The position numbers and the translations under genes were made by a program. From Pseudomonadales bacterium (GTDB lineage: Bacteria > Pseudomonadota > Gammaproteobacteria > Pseudomonadales > Azotimanducaceae), in assembly GCA_029251375.1 (NCBI GenBank), contig JAQXDL010000030.1, positions 1-34,144 on the forward strand: 34,144 nucleotides of DNA. Direction: 5' to 3'. Positions within the stretch are counted from its first letter, which is position 1; each line of letters opens with the position of its first letter. The notes beneath the pieces were generated by a model. The model was not told the origin of the DNA. It ran no database searches and was given only the letters and a program-made list of their open reading frames with translations. This document shows, one piece after another, positions 1,838 to 28,213 of this stretch.

Positions 1838-1931
1838 GGTAGAGCGTTACACCCGGTGGTGTGCCTGGTCTTCAACATCAGTGAGGCGCTGTTAAGGTGC
1901 TTGGTGGGTTCGACTCCTACCTCTACCGCCA
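1838..1931 (+). tRNA. selC: Selenocysteine tRNA (tRNA-Sec, anticodon UCA)
   Basis: This tRNA reads UGA as selenocysteine with SelA/SelB/SelD, none of which is in the window. The cloverleaf can be drawn by hand. Acceptor GGTAGAG pairs with CTCTACC, followed by discriminator G and an encoded CCA. The D-arm is the selenocysteine type: a 6-bp stem (1848-1853 with 1858-1863) closing the tetraloop CGGT. The anticodon stem is 5 bp with loop CTTCAAC, giving anticodon TCA at 1872-1874. A 6-bp variable arm pairs 1884-1889 with 1897-1902. The T-arm is GTGGG/CCTAC with loop TTCGACT. Oddity: the acceptor/T helix is 7+5 = 12 bp, not the usual bacterial 8+5. C1845, at the expected eighth position, has no partner. 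Confidence 0.93.
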
Positions 1932-19371: not shown

Positions 19372-20481
19372 TTAAGCCGTCTTATTAATTAGCTCATCCG
19401 CCGCTAAGGCCTTGCGTTCCGACAGTTTAGTTTTGACACTCAGACGGAAGTCTCGGATCATCTTTTCGGTTGTATCCCAATCGACACAAGCATCGGTCAC
19501 CGACACGCCGTAGGCCATGTCATCTTGATTCTCCATAATTTTCTGATTGCCAGCATTGATATTACTTTCAATCATCAAGCCGATGATTGAACGGTTACCA
19601 TCATCAATTTGCTTGGCAACCTCGTCGAGAACTTTTGGTTGGCGGTTGTGATCTTTCTCTGAGTTTGCATGACTACAATCAATCATAATGTTTGCCGGTA
19701 TACCTGCACCCAGCAGCTGCTTCTCGCAAGTGGCTACACTGTCACTATCGTAGTTAGTCGTTCCGCCGCCACCACGCAGCACGATATGCGCATGTTGGTT
19801 GCCTCGTGTATGAATCACCGACACTTCACCTTGATGATTGATCCCCAGAAAGCGATGCGGTGCAGATACTGATTGGAGTGCATTGATTGCTACGCCCAAA
19901 CCGCCGTCCGTACCATTTTTGAAGCCAACGGATGATGATAAACCGCTTGCCATTTCTCTGTGGGTTTGTGATTCGGTGGTTCTTGCGCCAATGGCACTCC
20001 AGCTAATCATATCCTGAAGAAACTGTGGTGAAATAGGGTCCAATGCCTCAGTGGAAGTAGGTACGTTCATTTCAGCAAGGTCCACTAGTAGCTTTCGACC
20101 GAGATGAAGACCTTCGGATATGTTAAATGAATCGTTTAGATGCGGATCGTTTATAAAACCTTTCCAACCAACCGTCGTGCGAGGCTTCTCAAAGTAAACA
20201 CGCATAACAAGAAACAACGTATCTGATACTTCTTCAGCAAGCGTCTTAAGTCTTTTGGCATAATCCAATGCCGCATCTACATCATGAATAGAGCAGGGGC
20301 CGACGACCAGAAACATCCTTGGGTCTGATCGGTCAATAATATTCTTTATGGTAAGCCGAGCATTCGAGACGGTCGCAAGTCCTTTTTCAGAAACAGGCAC
20401 TTGCTGCTTTAGCTGATCGGGTGTGACCAATGTTTCTTCACTTAACACGTTTACATCATCCACTTTAATTGTTGTCATCAT
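19372..20481 (-). CDS. aroG: 3-deoxy-7-phosphoheptulonate (DAHP) synthase, class I
   Basis: The 369-aa enzyme condenses phosphoenolpyruvate with erythrose-4-phosphate, the first step of the shikimate pathway. Hallmarks are VGPCSIHD (metal cysteine C63), PRTTVGWKG, FKNGTDGG, HIVLRGGG and DCSHANSEKDH. It is the AroF/AroG/AroH type, about 20 residues longer than E. coli AroG, mostly at the N-terminus. Which amino acid inhibits it cannot be read safely. Two consecutive ATG codons open the gene. A leader peptide rich in Phe, Trp and Tyr codons, followed by a terminator, lies directly upstream, so expression is probably controlled by attenuation. Confidence 0.94.
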   Translation of the reverse strand: MMTTIKVDDVNVLSEETLVTPDQLKQQVPVSEKGLATVSNARLTIKNIIDRSDPRMFLVVGPCSIHDVDAALDYAKRLKTLAEEVSDTLFLVMRVYFEKPRTTVGWKGFINDPHLNDSFNISEGLHLGRKLLVDLAEMNVPTSTEALDPISPQFLQDMISWSAIGARTTESQTHREMASGLSSSVGFKNGTDGGLGVAINALQSVSAPHRFLGINHQGEVSVIHTRGNQHAHIVLRGGGGTTNYDSDSVATCEKQLLGAGIPANIMIDCSHANSEKDHNRQPKVLDEVAKQIDDGNRSIIGLMIESNINAGNQKIMENQDDMAYGVSVTDACVDWDTTEKMIRDFRLSVKTKLSERKALAADELINKTA

Positions 20482-20516
20482 TTGGGTTCCGAGTTGACTT
20501 CGATAAAAATTAGTTC

Positions 20517-20554
20517 AAAAAAAAACCCCGTTAGACGCTCGCCTATCGGGGTTT
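20517..20554 (-). terminator. Attenuator terminator in front of the DAHP synthase gene
   Basis: Read on the minus strand, AAACCCCG pairs with CGGGGTTT, and the inner part TAGGC/GTCTA extends the stem, followed by nine T residues. It lies only about 36 bases before the synthase ATG and after the leader-peptide stop, which is the place of an attenuator. A 22-bp perfect palindrome just before it can offer competing pairs. Confidence 0.85.
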
Positions 20555-20558
20555 CCTT

Positions 20559-20580
20559 TTAGGCGGTCATGACCGCCTAA
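20559..20580. promoter_or_regulatory. 22-bp perfect palindrome in the DAHP synthase leader
   Basis: The half-site TTAGGCGGTCA is followed directly by its exact reverse complement. In RNA it is a hairpin between leader-peptide stop and terminator. Its later half contains CGCCTA, which can also pair with TAGGCG in the early arm of the terminator, so it could be the antiterminator switch. As DNA it could equally be a dimeric repressor site. Confidence 0.6.
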
Positions 20581-20596
20581 TTTTCAAAAAAGCGAT

Positions 20597-20692
20597 CTAT
20601 TTCTCAAAGAAATAATAGAAGCCGAACCAGAAGAAACCTGTTGTGGTCTCGTTGGTAAACTCGGCTGATCGTTTTTGTAGGGTTAAATTCAT
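20597..20692 (-). CDS. Aromatic leader peptide upstream of DAHP synthase
   Basis: A 31-codon frame starting at the ATG at 20692 ends in TTTGFFWFGFYYFFEK and stop TAG. Six Phe, one Trp and two Tyr codons fall within ten positions, far above chance, and all three products of the shikimate pathway are represented. The frame stays open upstream to 20860, so an earlier ATG (for example MLAERLQ) is possible. The Tyr-Tyr-Phe-Phe codons also form an RNA hairpin with the following GAGAAATAG. A leader peptide, terminator and DAHP synthase gene in this order suggest ribosome-mediated attenuation. No ideal ribosome site is seen for the chosen ATG. Confidence 0.75.
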   Translation of the reverse strand: MNLTLQKRSAEFTNETTTGFFWFGFYYFFEK

Positions 20693-20965
20693 GGCTGCAA
20701 TAATAGCGGCCTGCAGCCGTTCTGCAAGCATTTTCTCGTTAATAGGGCGATTTAGCATGAAATAGAATTGAATTTGTCGGCAAGTGGCGGATATTTTGTT
20801 AATCCAATCTCTAATATGACGCAATAATGTCATAACGCTGCGAGCATGCACTTTTAGCATAGACTGCGAGCATACAAACGCAGCATTCGGTTAGTTTGGC
20901 CGTCTAAGGTTTGACTTATGGACCGAAGCGCCTAGTATGCGCTTTTTCGTCTTTAGGTTCAGATT

Positions 20966-21730
20966 GTGGAATTTGAATTCTCGTATTTACTTCTTGGCTT
21001 GTTGGCACTCACAGGTATTGCAGCGGGCTTCATTAATACCCTTGCGGGCGGTGGCTCAATGTTAACGCTGCCGGTAATGATGATGATGGGAATGCCCGCA
21101 GATATTGCCAATGGTACAAATCGAGTCGGTGTATTACTTCAATCTCTGACCGCGATGCGCGGTTTCGACAAAGAGAACAAGCTTGAGTCCACAGCAATAT
21201 TACCCATGTTAGTACCAACCTTGGTTGGTTCTTTAGTCGGTGCTATTGCGGCTAGTATTCTTCCGGTCATGCTGTTAAAGCCTATATTGCTTGTCACGAT
21301 GATACTGATGGCATTGGTGATGTTGGTTAAACCCGATATGGTTGCGCCGGCGCAAGGTACTCAGGCGCATAAATTACGCGACAAACCCAGCGCCGTGCTA
21401 GGGCTGTTTTTGGCTGGTGTCTATGGCGGCTTCATTCAGGCTGGCGTCGGATTTATATTGTTGGCAGCTCTGGCAGGTGGTTTAAGGTATGATCTTGTTC
21501 GGGCAAACGCCCTGAAAACTGTTGCCACAGCAGTTTTTAGTGGTCTAGCTCTGGCGGTTTTTGTGGTCATGGGGCAAGTCAGCTGGATCCCAGGTTTGGT
21601 GTTAGCGGTTGGCTCTATGATCGGAGCAACACTAAGCGTCAGGTTTGCGATTAGTGTGTCTCAGACAGTGCTAAAATGGATATTGTTTATTATGGTCAGT
21701 ATCACCTGCTTAATGGCAATGCTGTTCTAG
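20966..21730 (+). CDS. TauE/SafE-family sulfite/organosulfur exporter (TSUP)
   Basis: A 254-aa membrane protein with about eight helices in two repeats. The first repeat has GFINTLAGGGSMLTLPVMMMMGMP-ADIANGTNRVGVLLQS, the usual signature; the second has GVYGGFIQAGVGFILLAAL. It reads from GTG with an in-frame stop four codons before, so no longer start is possible. The family exports sulfite, sulfoacetate, sulfide or related anions, or moves organosulfur compounds; direction and substrate are unknown here. A sulfite reductase lies in the same window but not in the same operon. Confidence 0.9.
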   Translation: MEFEFSYLLLGLLALTGIAAGFINTLAGGGSMLTLPVMMMMGMPADIANGTNRVGVLLQSLTAMRGFDKENKLESTAILPMLVPTLVGSLVGAIAASILPVMLLKPILLVTMILMALVMLVKPDMVAPAQGTQAHKLRDKPSAVLGLFLAGVYGGFIQAGVGFILLAALAGGLRYDLVRANALKTVATAVFSGLALAVFVVMGQVSWIPGLVLAVGSMIGATLSVRFAISVSQTVLKWILFIMVSITCLMAMLF

Positions 21731-23641: not shown

Positions 23642-23718
23642 TTGAGCCGGGTTATTAAACATTATTACTGACCATCACTGGTTCAGGATAAGAGAAACAT
23701 TTGGACGAGGACAACACG

Positions 23719-24570
23719 ATGAAATTTGGATTAATCCCAGTAAATATTGGCGTTGAATCTTCCGAACAAATGATTGGCATGGCACAATTAGCGGAATCCA
23801 AGGGTTTCGAATCGGTGTGGACGTTCGAACACGTCATCGTACCGATGGACTACCAATCTAAGTACCCCTATAACGCGTCTGGTAAAATGGGTGCCGATCC
23901 GGAATCCAACTTTGTTGATCCGTTGATAGCACTGACGGCAATCGCCGCGAGCACCTCAAAAATCCGTTTGGGTACAGGGGTCAATATATTGAGTCAGGTT
24001 AATCCTCTTTATATGGCAAAACAGGCTGCTAGCATCGATATGATATCGAACGGACGCTTTATGTTAGGCGTCGGTATTGGATGGCTTCGAGAAGAATTTG
24101 AAGCACTTGGCGTGCCCTTCGAAAAACGCGGCGCTCGATTTGATGACTATGTTGCCGCCATGAGAAAAGTTTGGTCAGGCGACGTTGTTGAGCATCAAAG
24201 TGAGTTTATTAATTGGTCGGGTTTTAAGAGCTATCCCATTCCAAAGCAAAGCCCACTGCCTGTTATTATGGGCGGCATTAAGGGCAAAATTCACGAACGC
24301 ATAGCGACTTTAGGTGACGGCTGGTATGCCCCAGTGAGTGATCCTGCGGAATTGAGAGGGCACCTAGATAAGATTAGAGCGAAGTGCGATGAGATTGGCA
24401 GAGACTTCTCTGAGATAGAAATAACATGTATGTGGCCTGGTGTTGGGGGTCCTGAAGCTGTCGAAGCGCTCGAGGTTGCTGGCGCTCACAGATTAGTTGT
24501 GCCCGTTATGGCGCTAGGCCCAGATCCTGTTGCTGGTATCAGCAAACTTGCTGAAGAGCTAATCGATTAG
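23719..24570 (+). CDS. LLM-class (luciferase-like) F420/FMN-dependent oxidoreductase
   Basis: I place the start at the ATG 23719, preceded by GAGG at a good distance, rather than at the TTG 18 bases earlier; the protein is then 283 aa. It has the luciferase-like TIM barrel: GLIPVNIGV at the N-terminus, FESVWTFEHV, IRLGTGVNILSQVNPLYMAKQAASIDMISNGRFMLGVGIGW, and a C-terminal domain. This pattern fits the F420-dependent TIGR03619-like group, though related proteins use FMN. Substrate unknown. A threonine/serine dehydratase gene follows 40 bp later on the same strand. Confidence 0.87.
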   Translation: MKFGLIPVNIGVESSEQMIGMAQLAESKGFESVWTFEHVIVPMDYQSKYPYNASGKMGADPESNFVDPLIALTAIAASTSKIRLGTGVNILSQVNPLYMAKQAASIDMISNGRFMLGVGIGWLREEFEALGVPFEKRGARFDDYVAAMRKVWSGDVVEHQSEFINWSGFKSYPIPKQSPLPVIMGGIKGKIHERIATLGDGWYAPVSDPAELRGHLDKIRAKCDEIGRDFSEIEITCMWPGVGGPEAVEALEVAGAHRLVVPVMALGPDPVAGISKLAEELID

Positions 24571-26597: not shown

Positions 26598-26821
26598 GAC
26601 TTTGTCTCCTAATTGCGTCTTCTACCTATAATGGAATCATACACGAGTCTGCCTTATTCTGATTACTTTCAGAGGGGACTAAGCGCAGCTTTGTTATTTT
26701 GTAGTAAGCATTTAGGCTGCCAAGCGCACAACCGAGTTGAGCAGATTCTGTATGAATAGAATTAGTGTAGTAAATGAGAAATTGCCGGTTTTAATTTTCG
26801 AGGTGTGACGTTAGAATCTGC

Positions 26822-26925
26822 GGCTTACATGACTGGCGATATACTGCGTCTTAACGTAGTAACAGGTGGACCTAACCATCGGGAAGTGTGAACGTAAGAC
26901 CTAAAATGCCGTTCGCCTGGGCGCA
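26822..26925 (+). ncRNA. ZTP riboswitch (pfl motif) controlling glyA
   Basis: The conserved order of the pfl RNA is present. P1 pairs CTTAC (26824-26828) with GTAAG (26894-26898). It encloses the block GACTGGCG (26831-26838), a 6-bp hairpin CTGCGT/ACGTAG, the GGTGG...CCATC stem and the GGGAAGTG block. The downstream hairpin/pseudoknot element CGCCTGGGC (26914-26922) follows. The known ligand is ZTP/ZMP, an alarmone of folate stress, and glyA is a typical target. No strong terminator lies between it and the ATG, so control is likely at translation. Confidence 0.9.
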
Positions 26926-26953
26926 CACCAAGTTAACCTGAGAAAGATAGCCC

Positions 26954-28213
26954 ATGACAACAAATTTAGAATATCTGCAGCAAAATGATCCGGACGTATT
27001 CGCAGCGCTTAAAGGCGAAGAGAATCGACAGCGTATGGGGATCGAACTCATACCCTCCGAAAATTATACATTCCCAGAAGTCTTGGCGACCCTCGGTAGT
27101 GTGTTTACCAACAAGTACTCTGAAGGCTATCCGGGCCGGCGTTATTACGGTGGCCAGGAGTTCACCGATCAGATTGAGACCCTCGCACGGGATCGAGCAA
27201 AGGACGTGTTTCGATGTGAACACGCCAATGTTCAGCCGCTGTCAGGTTCTGCGATGAATCAAGCGGTTTACTTAGGCTTGCTTGAACCTGGCGATACGAT
27301 TCTTGCCATGGACCTATCCCACGGTGGTCACCTGACACACGGAGCGCCCGTGTCACACATGGGTAAAATATTTAATTTTGAACGTTACGTGACAAACCCG
27401 GTCGATGGCTCAATCGATTTCGATAAAGTACGCGAAGATGCTCTAAAACATAGACCAAAGATGATACTCGCGGGCTACACGTCGTATCCACGCGACCTTG
27501 ATTACGAAGCCTTTGTTTCTATTGCAGAAGAGGTCGGTGCAATCACTATGACAGATGCTTCCCACTTCGGTGGCTTAGTAGCGGGTGGCGCAATGAAAAA
27601 CCCGTTCGACTTTGGCTTCGATGTTGTCACAACTACGACTCACAAGAGTTTGAGAGGACCACGCGGCGGCATGATCTTATGTAAGAAAGAATTTGCTAAA
27701 AAGATTGATAAGTCTGTTTTTCCTGGACTCCAAGGTGGCCCGCACATGAACGCCGTTGCGGCCATTGCGACCACGCTGTTGAAAGCACAAGGTCAAGAAT
27801 TCAAGAATTACGCGCAGCAAGTCCTGGTTAATGCCAAAACACTTGCCGCGAGTTTAATGGAGCGCCAAGCGTCGCTTGTCACCGGCGGTACGGACAATCA
27901 TATGATGGTTGTTGATACATCTATTAGTTATGGGCTCGACGGCAGAGTTGCTGAAGAGCTGTTGGATAAAGCATCCATTACAACAAATAAACAGATTATT
28001 CCTGATGATCCAAACCCACCGCTACGACCCAGTGGTGTTCGTATTGGCACGCCAGCGGCCACCGCACGCGGTATGGGTGAAGCAGACATGGAAAAACTCG
28101 CGGCATGGATACATACCTGCCTGACCAATCCAGAAGATGAAGCAAAAATTACATCTATCAAGGGTGAAGTCGAAGAGTTCTGTCAGCAATTTCCTGTTCC
28201 CGGTCTTGAATAG
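26954..28213 (+). CDS. glyA: Serine hydroxymethyltransferase
   Basis: The 419-aa PLP enzyme interconverts serine and glycine with loading of tetrahydrofolate. The PLP lysine is K231 in TTTTHKSLRGPRGG, and the folate/substrate segments IPSENY, YYGGQE and LSHGGHLTHG are recognisable. Compared with E. coli GlyA, several motifs differ: THKSLRGP for THKTLAGP, DASHFGGLVAGG for DMAHVAGLVAAG, and IPSEN for IASEN. It therefore belongs to a more distant SHMT clade and could be a second or transferred copy. The ZTP riboswitch lies 28 bp upstream. The stop codon lies inside the first unit of a 14-bp tandem repeat. Confidence 0.95.
   Translation: MTTNLEYLQQNDPDVFAALKGEENRQRMGIELIPSENYTFPEVLATLGSVFTNKYSEGYPGRRYYGGQEFTDQIETLARDRAKDVFRCEHANVQPLSGSAMNQAVYLGLLEPGDTILAMDLSHGGHLTHGAPVSHMGKIFNFERYVTNPVDGSIDFDKVREDALKHRPKMILAGYTSYPRDLDYEAFVSIAEEVGAITMTDASHFGGLVAGGAMKNPFDFGFDVVTTTTHKSLRGPRGGMILCKKEFAKKIDKSVFPGLQGGPHMNAVAAIATTLLKAQGQEFKNYAQQVLVNAKTLAASLMERQASLVTGGTDNHMMVVDTSISYGLDGRVAEELLDKASITTNKQIIPDDPNPPLRPSGVRIGTPAATARGMGEADMEKLAAWIHTCLTNPEDEAKITSIKGEVEEFCQQFPVPGLE

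Follow-up and report, generated by a model that had tools for sequence, protein, structure and literature searches.

How might a bacterium adjust a single DAHP synthase to the supply of three different amino acids? In E. coli, three isozymes and two repressors share the feedback on the first step of the shikimate pathway. In the Pseudomonadales genome studied here (99.6% complete), the DAHP synthase encoded at 19372..20481 is the sole match of its kind; no class II DAHP synthase was found in it, and a search for TrpR and the TyrR-type helix-turn-helix gave no match at E <= 0.001. The window, i.e. the whole stretch of DNA that was analysed (34,144 nt), carries an aromatic-codon leader and a terminator in front of this gene. 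We consider it likely, from the sequence and its conservation, that a ribosome-mediated transcription attenuator couples the supply of Trp, Tyr and Phe to the expression of this one synthase. Leader-peptide attenuation itself is classical; if the reading is right, a single RNA would combine three signals in the control of one enzyme.

The leader region of the window

The relevant features, all on the minus strand, are the following.

20722..20727, minus strand: predicted -35 box TTGCAG, of the TTGCA type that, with a 16 nt spacer, is common to many of the 97 family leaders described below
20700..20705, minus strand: predicted -10 box TATTAT, 7 nt 5' of the leader ATG, from the promoter score
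20597..20692, minus strand: leader peptide frame of 31 codons, MNLTLQKRSAEFTNETTTGFFWFGFYYFFEK, with its ATG at 20692 and its stop TAG at 20599-20597, from the sequence; predicted to be leaderless
20606..20635, minus strand: putative sensor codons FFWFGFYYFF, nine of the ten aromatic, from the sequence
20590..20597, minus strand: segment 0, GATCGCTT, whose first base is the last base of the stop codon, from the sequence and family swaps
20570..20580, minus strand: segment 1, the left half of a 22-bp palindrome, from the sequence and swaps
20559..20569, minus strand: segment 2, the right half of the palindrome, from the sequence, swaps and shuffles
20560-20565, minus strand: CGCCTA within segment 2, which can pair with segment 3 too
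20540..20545, minus strand: segment 3, TAGGCG, within the terminator hairpin, from swaps and shuffles
20517..20551, minus strand: intrinsic terminator, from the sequence and predicted fold
19372..20481, minus strand: DAHP synthase, class I (AroFGH equivalog TIGR00034, with subfamily PRK12755 as the best fit)

The original prediction of a 31-codon minus-strand frame ahead of a 22-bp palindrome and a terminator with nine T residues is confirmed in the sequence. The frame ends in FFWFGFYYFFEK, and the sensor run indeed brings all three aromatic amino acids together within ten codons, so that a short leader frame rich in codons for the products of the pathway precedes the gene. The palindrome TTAGGCGGTCATGACCGCCTAA is perfect over 22 nt (20580-20559), which makes the pairing of segment 1 with segment 2 plain. 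The terminator, placed between the leader and the first gene by sequence and predicted fold, consists of CCCCG (20547-20551), CGGGG (20526-20530, segment 4) and nine T (20517-20525). The synthase ATG, expected about 36 bases beyond it, follows the T run at a distance of 35 bases, at 20481. The next gene upstream of the leader (20966-21730) is divergent and therefore has no need of this terminator.

Aromatic runs of this kind are rare. The six frames of the window contain a single 12-codon stretch in which at least nine residues are aromatic and Trp, Tyr and Phe are all represented, and the only stretch of the same density in the six frames of 527,635 bases of loci L001-L133 is this leader itself. 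At gathering score, no leader, T-box or riboswitch family of Rfam matches 20482-20692, and neither the Trp nor the Phe leader of Rfam matches the window. The only Rfam matches in the window, both away from this region, are a selenocysteine tRNA (1838-1927, plus strand), flanked by genes for an acyl-CoA synthetase and a TauD-like dioxygenase, and a ZMP/ZTP riboswitch (26819-26929, plus strand) directly 5' of a serine hydroxymethyltransferase gene (26954-28213). The plus strand of the window also encodes a luciferase-like oxidoreductase (23701-24570) of a family described as F420-dependent (TIGR03619).

Conservation of the leader and of its predicted start in the family

The family to which the window belongs is represented by 206 genomes, of which 143 contain the synthase at E <= 1e-120, with a total of 145 matches; 142 upstream regions, from 141 genomes and 33 genera, were examined. 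The predicted Phe/Trp/Tyr leader and terminator stand upstream of the synthase in 107 of these regions, in 27 of the 33 genera, and in all five genomes examined of the genus to which the window belongs. Pattern matching for a leader followed by a terminator picked out 102 regions, from which L204, L206, L214 and L220 (lacking a convincing aromatic leader) and L134 (a second copy) were dropped; the resulting 97 leaders from 26 genera form the set used for statistics. Nine leaders added later through the covariance model or a strand correction (L003, L008, L171, L173, L176, L177, L181, L221 and L223), together with L134, complete the count of 107. The other 35 regions lack a clear leader and attenuator; 16 of them belong to genus g21, five to g49 and four each to g48 and g45. 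Some of these misses show partial signs: L220 matches the model without a clear aromatic leader, and L143, L146 and L147 have aromatic frames without a clear terminator. Second matches to the attenuator model, away from the main synthase, were observed in three family members (G201 C1:599130-599219, G079 C144:4874-4952 and G022 C82:1761-1843).

The aromatic run is conserved along with the terminator, as had been anticipated. Trp, Tyr and Phe all occur within the last 20 codons of 84 of the 97 leaders, and the remaining 13 lack one of them (Phe in six, Trp in five, Tyr in two; five of the 97 regions contain unread bases). In genus g42, five of six leaders are without Phe. When one representative is taken per genus, all three residues are present in 23.2 of 26, against 16.8 (sd 2.4) for the same number of aromatic residues with random identity (2000 runs, highest 25). 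There is a tendency for Trp to come first (mostly at -10 or -7), followed by Tyr and then by Phe (-3 to -5), and in 76 of 97 leaders the last aromatic codon is followed by two or three others before the stop. From the conserved presence of the three residues we infer that the leader responds to a shortage of any of them; codon order alone would then make an OR-type sensor.

It is also conceivable, albeit doubtful, that the leader senses a single amino acid (Phe or Trp) and that the other aromatic codons are there through codon similarity or peptide chemistry. Phe is the commonest of the three (237 of 555 aromatic residues), and the aroR leader in front of the DAHP synthase gene aroF of C. glutamicum, which contains Phe-Tyr-Phe, is described in the passages concerned as answering to limitation of Phe and not of Tyr (PMC11802643, PMC4046766). 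However, no single residue is present in all 97 leaders, and the three co-occur beyond expectation. A TnaC-like mechanism, in which the leader peptide would arrest the ribosome by binding a free aromatic amino acid instead of having tRNA charge read by codons, is very improbable in our view. Recurring residues exist, such as W.GYYF in the window's group and SQ.PGRP in part of a second group of leaders (see below), but outside the aromatic positions the leaders are highly variable, the order and spacing of the aromatic residues vary, and arrest at a high amino acid level would need the opposite fold switch.

The start of the leader was approached with a generic sigma-70 score, applied to the stretch between 230 and 30 nt ahead of the stop. 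For the best-scoring promoter, an in-frame ATG lies 6-10 nt past the -10 box in 86 of the 97 leaders, which represent all 26 genera; a first ATG out of frame at 5-12 nt past the -10 box was found in none of the 97. A Shine-Dalgarno-like tetramer precedes only two of the 86 leader ATGs, versus 67 of 95 synthase starts (the latter tested more loosely). Because of this spacing and the near absence of Shine-Dalgarno sequences, we predict that transcription starts at the leader AUG or within about 3 nt of it, and that the leader mRNA is probably leaderless. In the window a start further upstream would give a frame of 87 codons; the ATG at 20692 is favoured on account of the promoter-to-ATG spacing. 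Leaderless leader peptides would thereby exist in gammaproteobacteria.

Competing helices and the predicted switch at the stop codon

Five segments (0 to 4) follow the aromatic codons, and their pairing supports a chain of alternatives in which 0:1 plus 2:3 would antiterminate and 1:2 plus 3:4 would terminate. In each leader, segments 1 and 2 were taken as the best hairpin beyond the initial 12 nt. Partners from the same genome were then compared with partners from other genera (2000 swaps), and the letters of one partner were shuffled, with the mean z taken per genus. The own partners reach -12.80 kcal/mol for 0:1 (swapped: -9.33) and -14.54 for 2:3 (swapped: -11.43), with 0 of 2000 swaps equalling either value; the test keeps no tree, and these numbers are therefore descriptive. 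The corresponding values for 1:2 are -15.86 and -11.66 kcal/mol (0 of 2000), but this helix had been chosen by folding. Composition shuffles, which keep no tree either and are likewise descriptive, give a mean z of -2.63 for 0:1 and -2.65 for 2:3, compared with -0.14 to -0.37 for four controls; for either helix, 25 of 26 genera fall below -1. In the window itself z is -3.86 for 0:1 and -2.91 for 2:3, and segment 0 forms eight pairs, three of them G-U, with 20571-20578 of segment 1.

Other pairings did not stand out. The original prediction had named two competing pairs: CGCCTA with TAGGCG, which is part of the conserved helix 2:3, and GGTTTCTT with AGGAAACC, which is not conserved. Both motifs of the latter pair are present in the window, but they occur together in only three of 97 leaders, and for the coding region with segment 3 as many as 788 of 1000 swaps were as good or better (mean z -0.14). 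A pairing of segment 0 with segment 3 was rejected as a general feature, since 1915 of 2000 swaps were as good (window z -1.91). Nor does the coding region pair with segment 0, as segment A would in a his-type attenuator, above the level of controls (104 of 2000 swaps as good, mean z -0.33); the control pairing of the coding region with segment 1 gave 297 of 2000. RNAalifold on a MAFFT alignment recovered the terminator alone. In genus g35 (L174, L189, L193, L199, L216 and L219) the partner of segment 2 (e.g. GGAAGG) precedes the terminator stem, and the antiterminator seems to extend into the CCCC arm of the terminator.

The perfect palindrome of the window also brings to mind a DNA operator for a dimeric repressor, followed by a plain 5' terminator. 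This is extremely improbable: in the relatives the arms differ, the middle is often non-palindromic, and both arms pair elsewhere too.

Under the attenuator reading, a ribosome would load onto the bare 5' end of the RNA because transcription would start at or next to the AUG. If Trp-, Tyr- or Phe-tRNA ran short, the ribosome would halt 3 to 12 codons before the stop and leave segment 0 free to pair with segment 1; segment 2 would thereby be released for pairing with segment 3, the terminator would not form, and the synthase would be transcribed. With all three amino acids plentiful, a ribosome at the stop codon would mask segment 0, so that 1:2 would pair, the 3:4 terminator would form and transcription would end.

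The folding alternatives were computed for the RNA up to just before segment 4, at equilibrium, with the 5' part hidden as if beneath a ribosome. Averaged over the 97 leaders, moving the first free base from the stop codon to stop+9 lowers 0:1 from 6.4 to 1.4 expected pairs and 2:3 from 6.8 to 4.3, and raises 1:2 from 0.8 to 3.9; hiding more than this changes the mean pairing little. The helix 2:3 outweighs 1:2 in 88 leaders when the RNA is free from stop-3, in 49 from stop+9 and in 43 from stop+13. Between stop-3 and stop+13, 2:3 falls in 73 leaders and rises in three, and 1:2 rises in 75 and falls in three. In these model folds the balance tips over the stretch that would be covered by a ribosome at the stop but not by one stalled on the aromatic codons. 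The 43 leaders in which 2:3 still outweighs 1:2 at the exposure of a ribosome at the stop speak against the reading. Equilibrium folding ignores the order of synthesis; that order favours 0:1.

The expected shift on hiding the bases after the stop is thus predicted for most leaders, but it is weak in the window and reversed in one sister species. Freed from stop-21, approximately the exposure that a ribosome halted on the earliest Phe or Trp codons would leave, the window leader has 5.65 (0:1), 1.56 (1:2) and 5.31 (2:3) expected pairs, and freed from stop+3 it has 0.38, 8.01 and 0.42, respectively. However, among six exposures (stop-30, -21, -12, -6, -3 and 0), 2:3 beats 1:2 at stop-21 only (0.37 vs 8.04 at stop-30; about 2.7 vs 5.0 from stop-12 to stop+0), so that by predicted fold the window's own leader is a weak switch. 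The sister species L004 and L005 switch clearly, with 2:3 going from 4.61 to 0.52 and from 5.50 to 0.25. In the sister species L002 (G003) the predicted fold moves the opposite way on masking; there segment 0 can pair with segment 3, which, judged by eye, may explain this odd fold. A mutually exclusive antiterminator is in summary predicted, conserved in the relatives and weak in the window itself.

A classical trp-type attenuator, in which the stalled ribosome itself masks segment 1 and lets 2:3 form, has the palindrome, antiterminator and terminator in this same order, and at most exposures no helix of the window is stronger than 1:2. We nevertheless regard it as improbable. The window's aromatic codons are 6 to 36 nt short of the stop, and segment 1 starts 16 nt past it, so that the regulatory codons neither overlap nor abut segment 1. 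Given a ribosome footprint of about 12-13 nt past the A site, a ribosome halted on the aromatic codons cannot reach segment 1, and the conserved 0:1 pairing would be superfluous. The window element appears to work most like the enteric his attenuator, with its segments A-F, in which B:C plus D:E antiterminate and C:D plus E:F terminate. The alternating chain is shared; the element differs in that no segment A was found, in addressing three amino acids instead of one and in having no Shine-Dalgarno sequence. The trp type hence fails on geometry and the his type on its absent first segment. Since that segment is lacking, a ribosome at the stop would be the OFF signal, and untranslated RNA would tend to read through: unlike trp or his, 2:3 is predicted to be favoured in 77 of 97 untranslated leaders, the window's own leader favouring 1:2 (7.42 vs 0.74 for 2:3). 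This logic yields a prediction that distinguishes the element from both trp and his.

Wider occurrence and relation to known systems

A covariance model of the attenuator (R1) was searched over 390 genomes of the order Pseudomonadales and matched 179 of them at E <= 0.001. R1 contains little but the terminator helix, and therefore only matches with a leader and a DAHP synthase were trusted. Of 21 matches inspected, 11 have both, and the other ten have no DAHP synthase frame within 250 nt (e.g. L238, L245 and L247). Among 80 named loci with the window's synthase type, R1 finds the element upstream in three (L031, L077 and L078), which are contigs of the window's family; four weaker matches lie at or past the gene's distal end. 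R1 matches in other Pseudomonadales families also stand before a second type of DAHP synthase, with leaders such as FFWWFGYGFYFSQSPGRP and AYWQFGFGYFYFSQEPGCH. This second synthase was found at 17 loci in 293 genomes at E <= 1e-125, and all 16 readable loci have leader and terminator, the query itself having been taken from such a locus.

Seventeen named genomes contain 34 synthase loci, of which 30 were examined. An aromatic leader and terminator were recognised at six of the 30, in Oceanobacter, Marinobacter, Stutzerimonas, Pseudomonas taiwanensis, Billgrantia and Halomonas. The other 24 failed, including all examined loci of Vibrio, Photobacterium, Yersinia, Catenovulum, Cocleimonas and Ectothiorhodospira. 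Within the second group of leaders the ATG lies 7 nt past the best -10 box in 17 of 26. The Pseudomonas, Halomonas and Billgrantia leaders, as well as L249 and L260, have a Shine-Dalgarno-like sequence and other spacings, and L246, L252 and L281 have neither; leaderless and Shine-Dalgarno versions would then coexist in what is apparently one family. In 19 of these 26 leaders, segment 3 loses more than two expected pairs with upstream RNA when the stop region is hidden. No such drop was seen in the two Pseudomonas relatives and in Halomonas alkalisoli, and the five-segment model is therefore unsupported there.

More tentatively, these observations allow for a Pseudomonadales-wide family of attenuators that would use one leader peptide to address Trp, Tyr and Phe alike, mostly leaderless and with five segments lacking the his-type first one. 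A ribosome at the stop would switch them off and untranslated RNA would tend to read through; they would serve two types of DAHP synthase where TrpR and TyrR are not found, and would include the Pseudomonas small RNA P15. We regard this broad reading, taken as a whole, as possible. With respect to the original prediction, three things are new: the segment that directly follows the stop codon (segment 0), a start that is probably leaderless, and the extension to a wider family of leaders.

E. coli trpL and pheL share with the element a leader peptide with aromatic codons, an antiterminator and a terminator; they respond to one amino acid, with four segments and a Shine-Dalgarno start. C. glutamicum aroR is alike in being an aromatic-codon leader peptide attenuator before DAHP synthase, a likeness that goes by its description; in the passages concerned it has no named Trp and responds to Phe only, and it belongs to another phylum (PMC11802643, PMC4046766). 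Attenuator leader peptides without a Shine-Dalgarno sequence are indicated by the passage on S. meliloti trpL, whose rnTrpL begins at the ATG (PMC7298713), and by a cited title on the C. glutamicum ilvBNC leader, said to be without a ribosome binding site (in PMC4046766); these concern a single amino acid or the branched-chain amino acids, in other bacterial classes. Attenuators have been predicted before gammaproteobacterial DAHP synthase genes, namely in the Vibrio operons of DAHP synthase (Tyr type) and tyrA (Merino database, Table 7, PMC1173090), for which the passage gives no leader peptide; no aromatic leader with terminator was recognised at the Vibrio and Photobacterium loci among our 30. 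A passage of a Shewanella survey mentions predicted RNA motifs before aroF and aroH (PMC2659441). Among the open-licence papers listed by our searches, we found none that describes an attenuator upstream of a DAHP synthase gene in Pseudomonas and its relatives, none that treats P15 as such an element and none on a three-amino-acid, leaderless, five-segment version.

Finally, Rfam family RF00627 (Pseudomonas sRNA P15) matched two of 12 sources, L283 with 104.7 bits and L284 with 114.4 bits; at gathering score the window and ten other sources gave no match.

L283 2775-2893 and L284 2809-2930, minus strand: RF00627 match, coincident with the aromatic attenuator

The P15 match spans the aromatic codons, the hairpins and the terminator before a DAHP synthase paralog (Pseudomonas taiwanensis, Stutzerimonas stutzeri). 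P15 is filed as a small RNA gene, and its two leaders, in distinction to that of the window, have Shine-Dalgarno-like sequences. The coincidence suggests that this orphan RNA is probably the terminated leader transcript of the aromatic attenuator, which would give it a function. Between attenuator and synthase, the same two loci contain a second small frame on the minus strand (L283 2730-2632, MTTYYRTDRYYRYDWRFSRF..; L284 from 2758, MNYATYCYANTYAWRFSQ.., the latter by eye), with a Shine-Dalgarno-like sequence and many Tyr codons, which is perhaps a second, translational leader.
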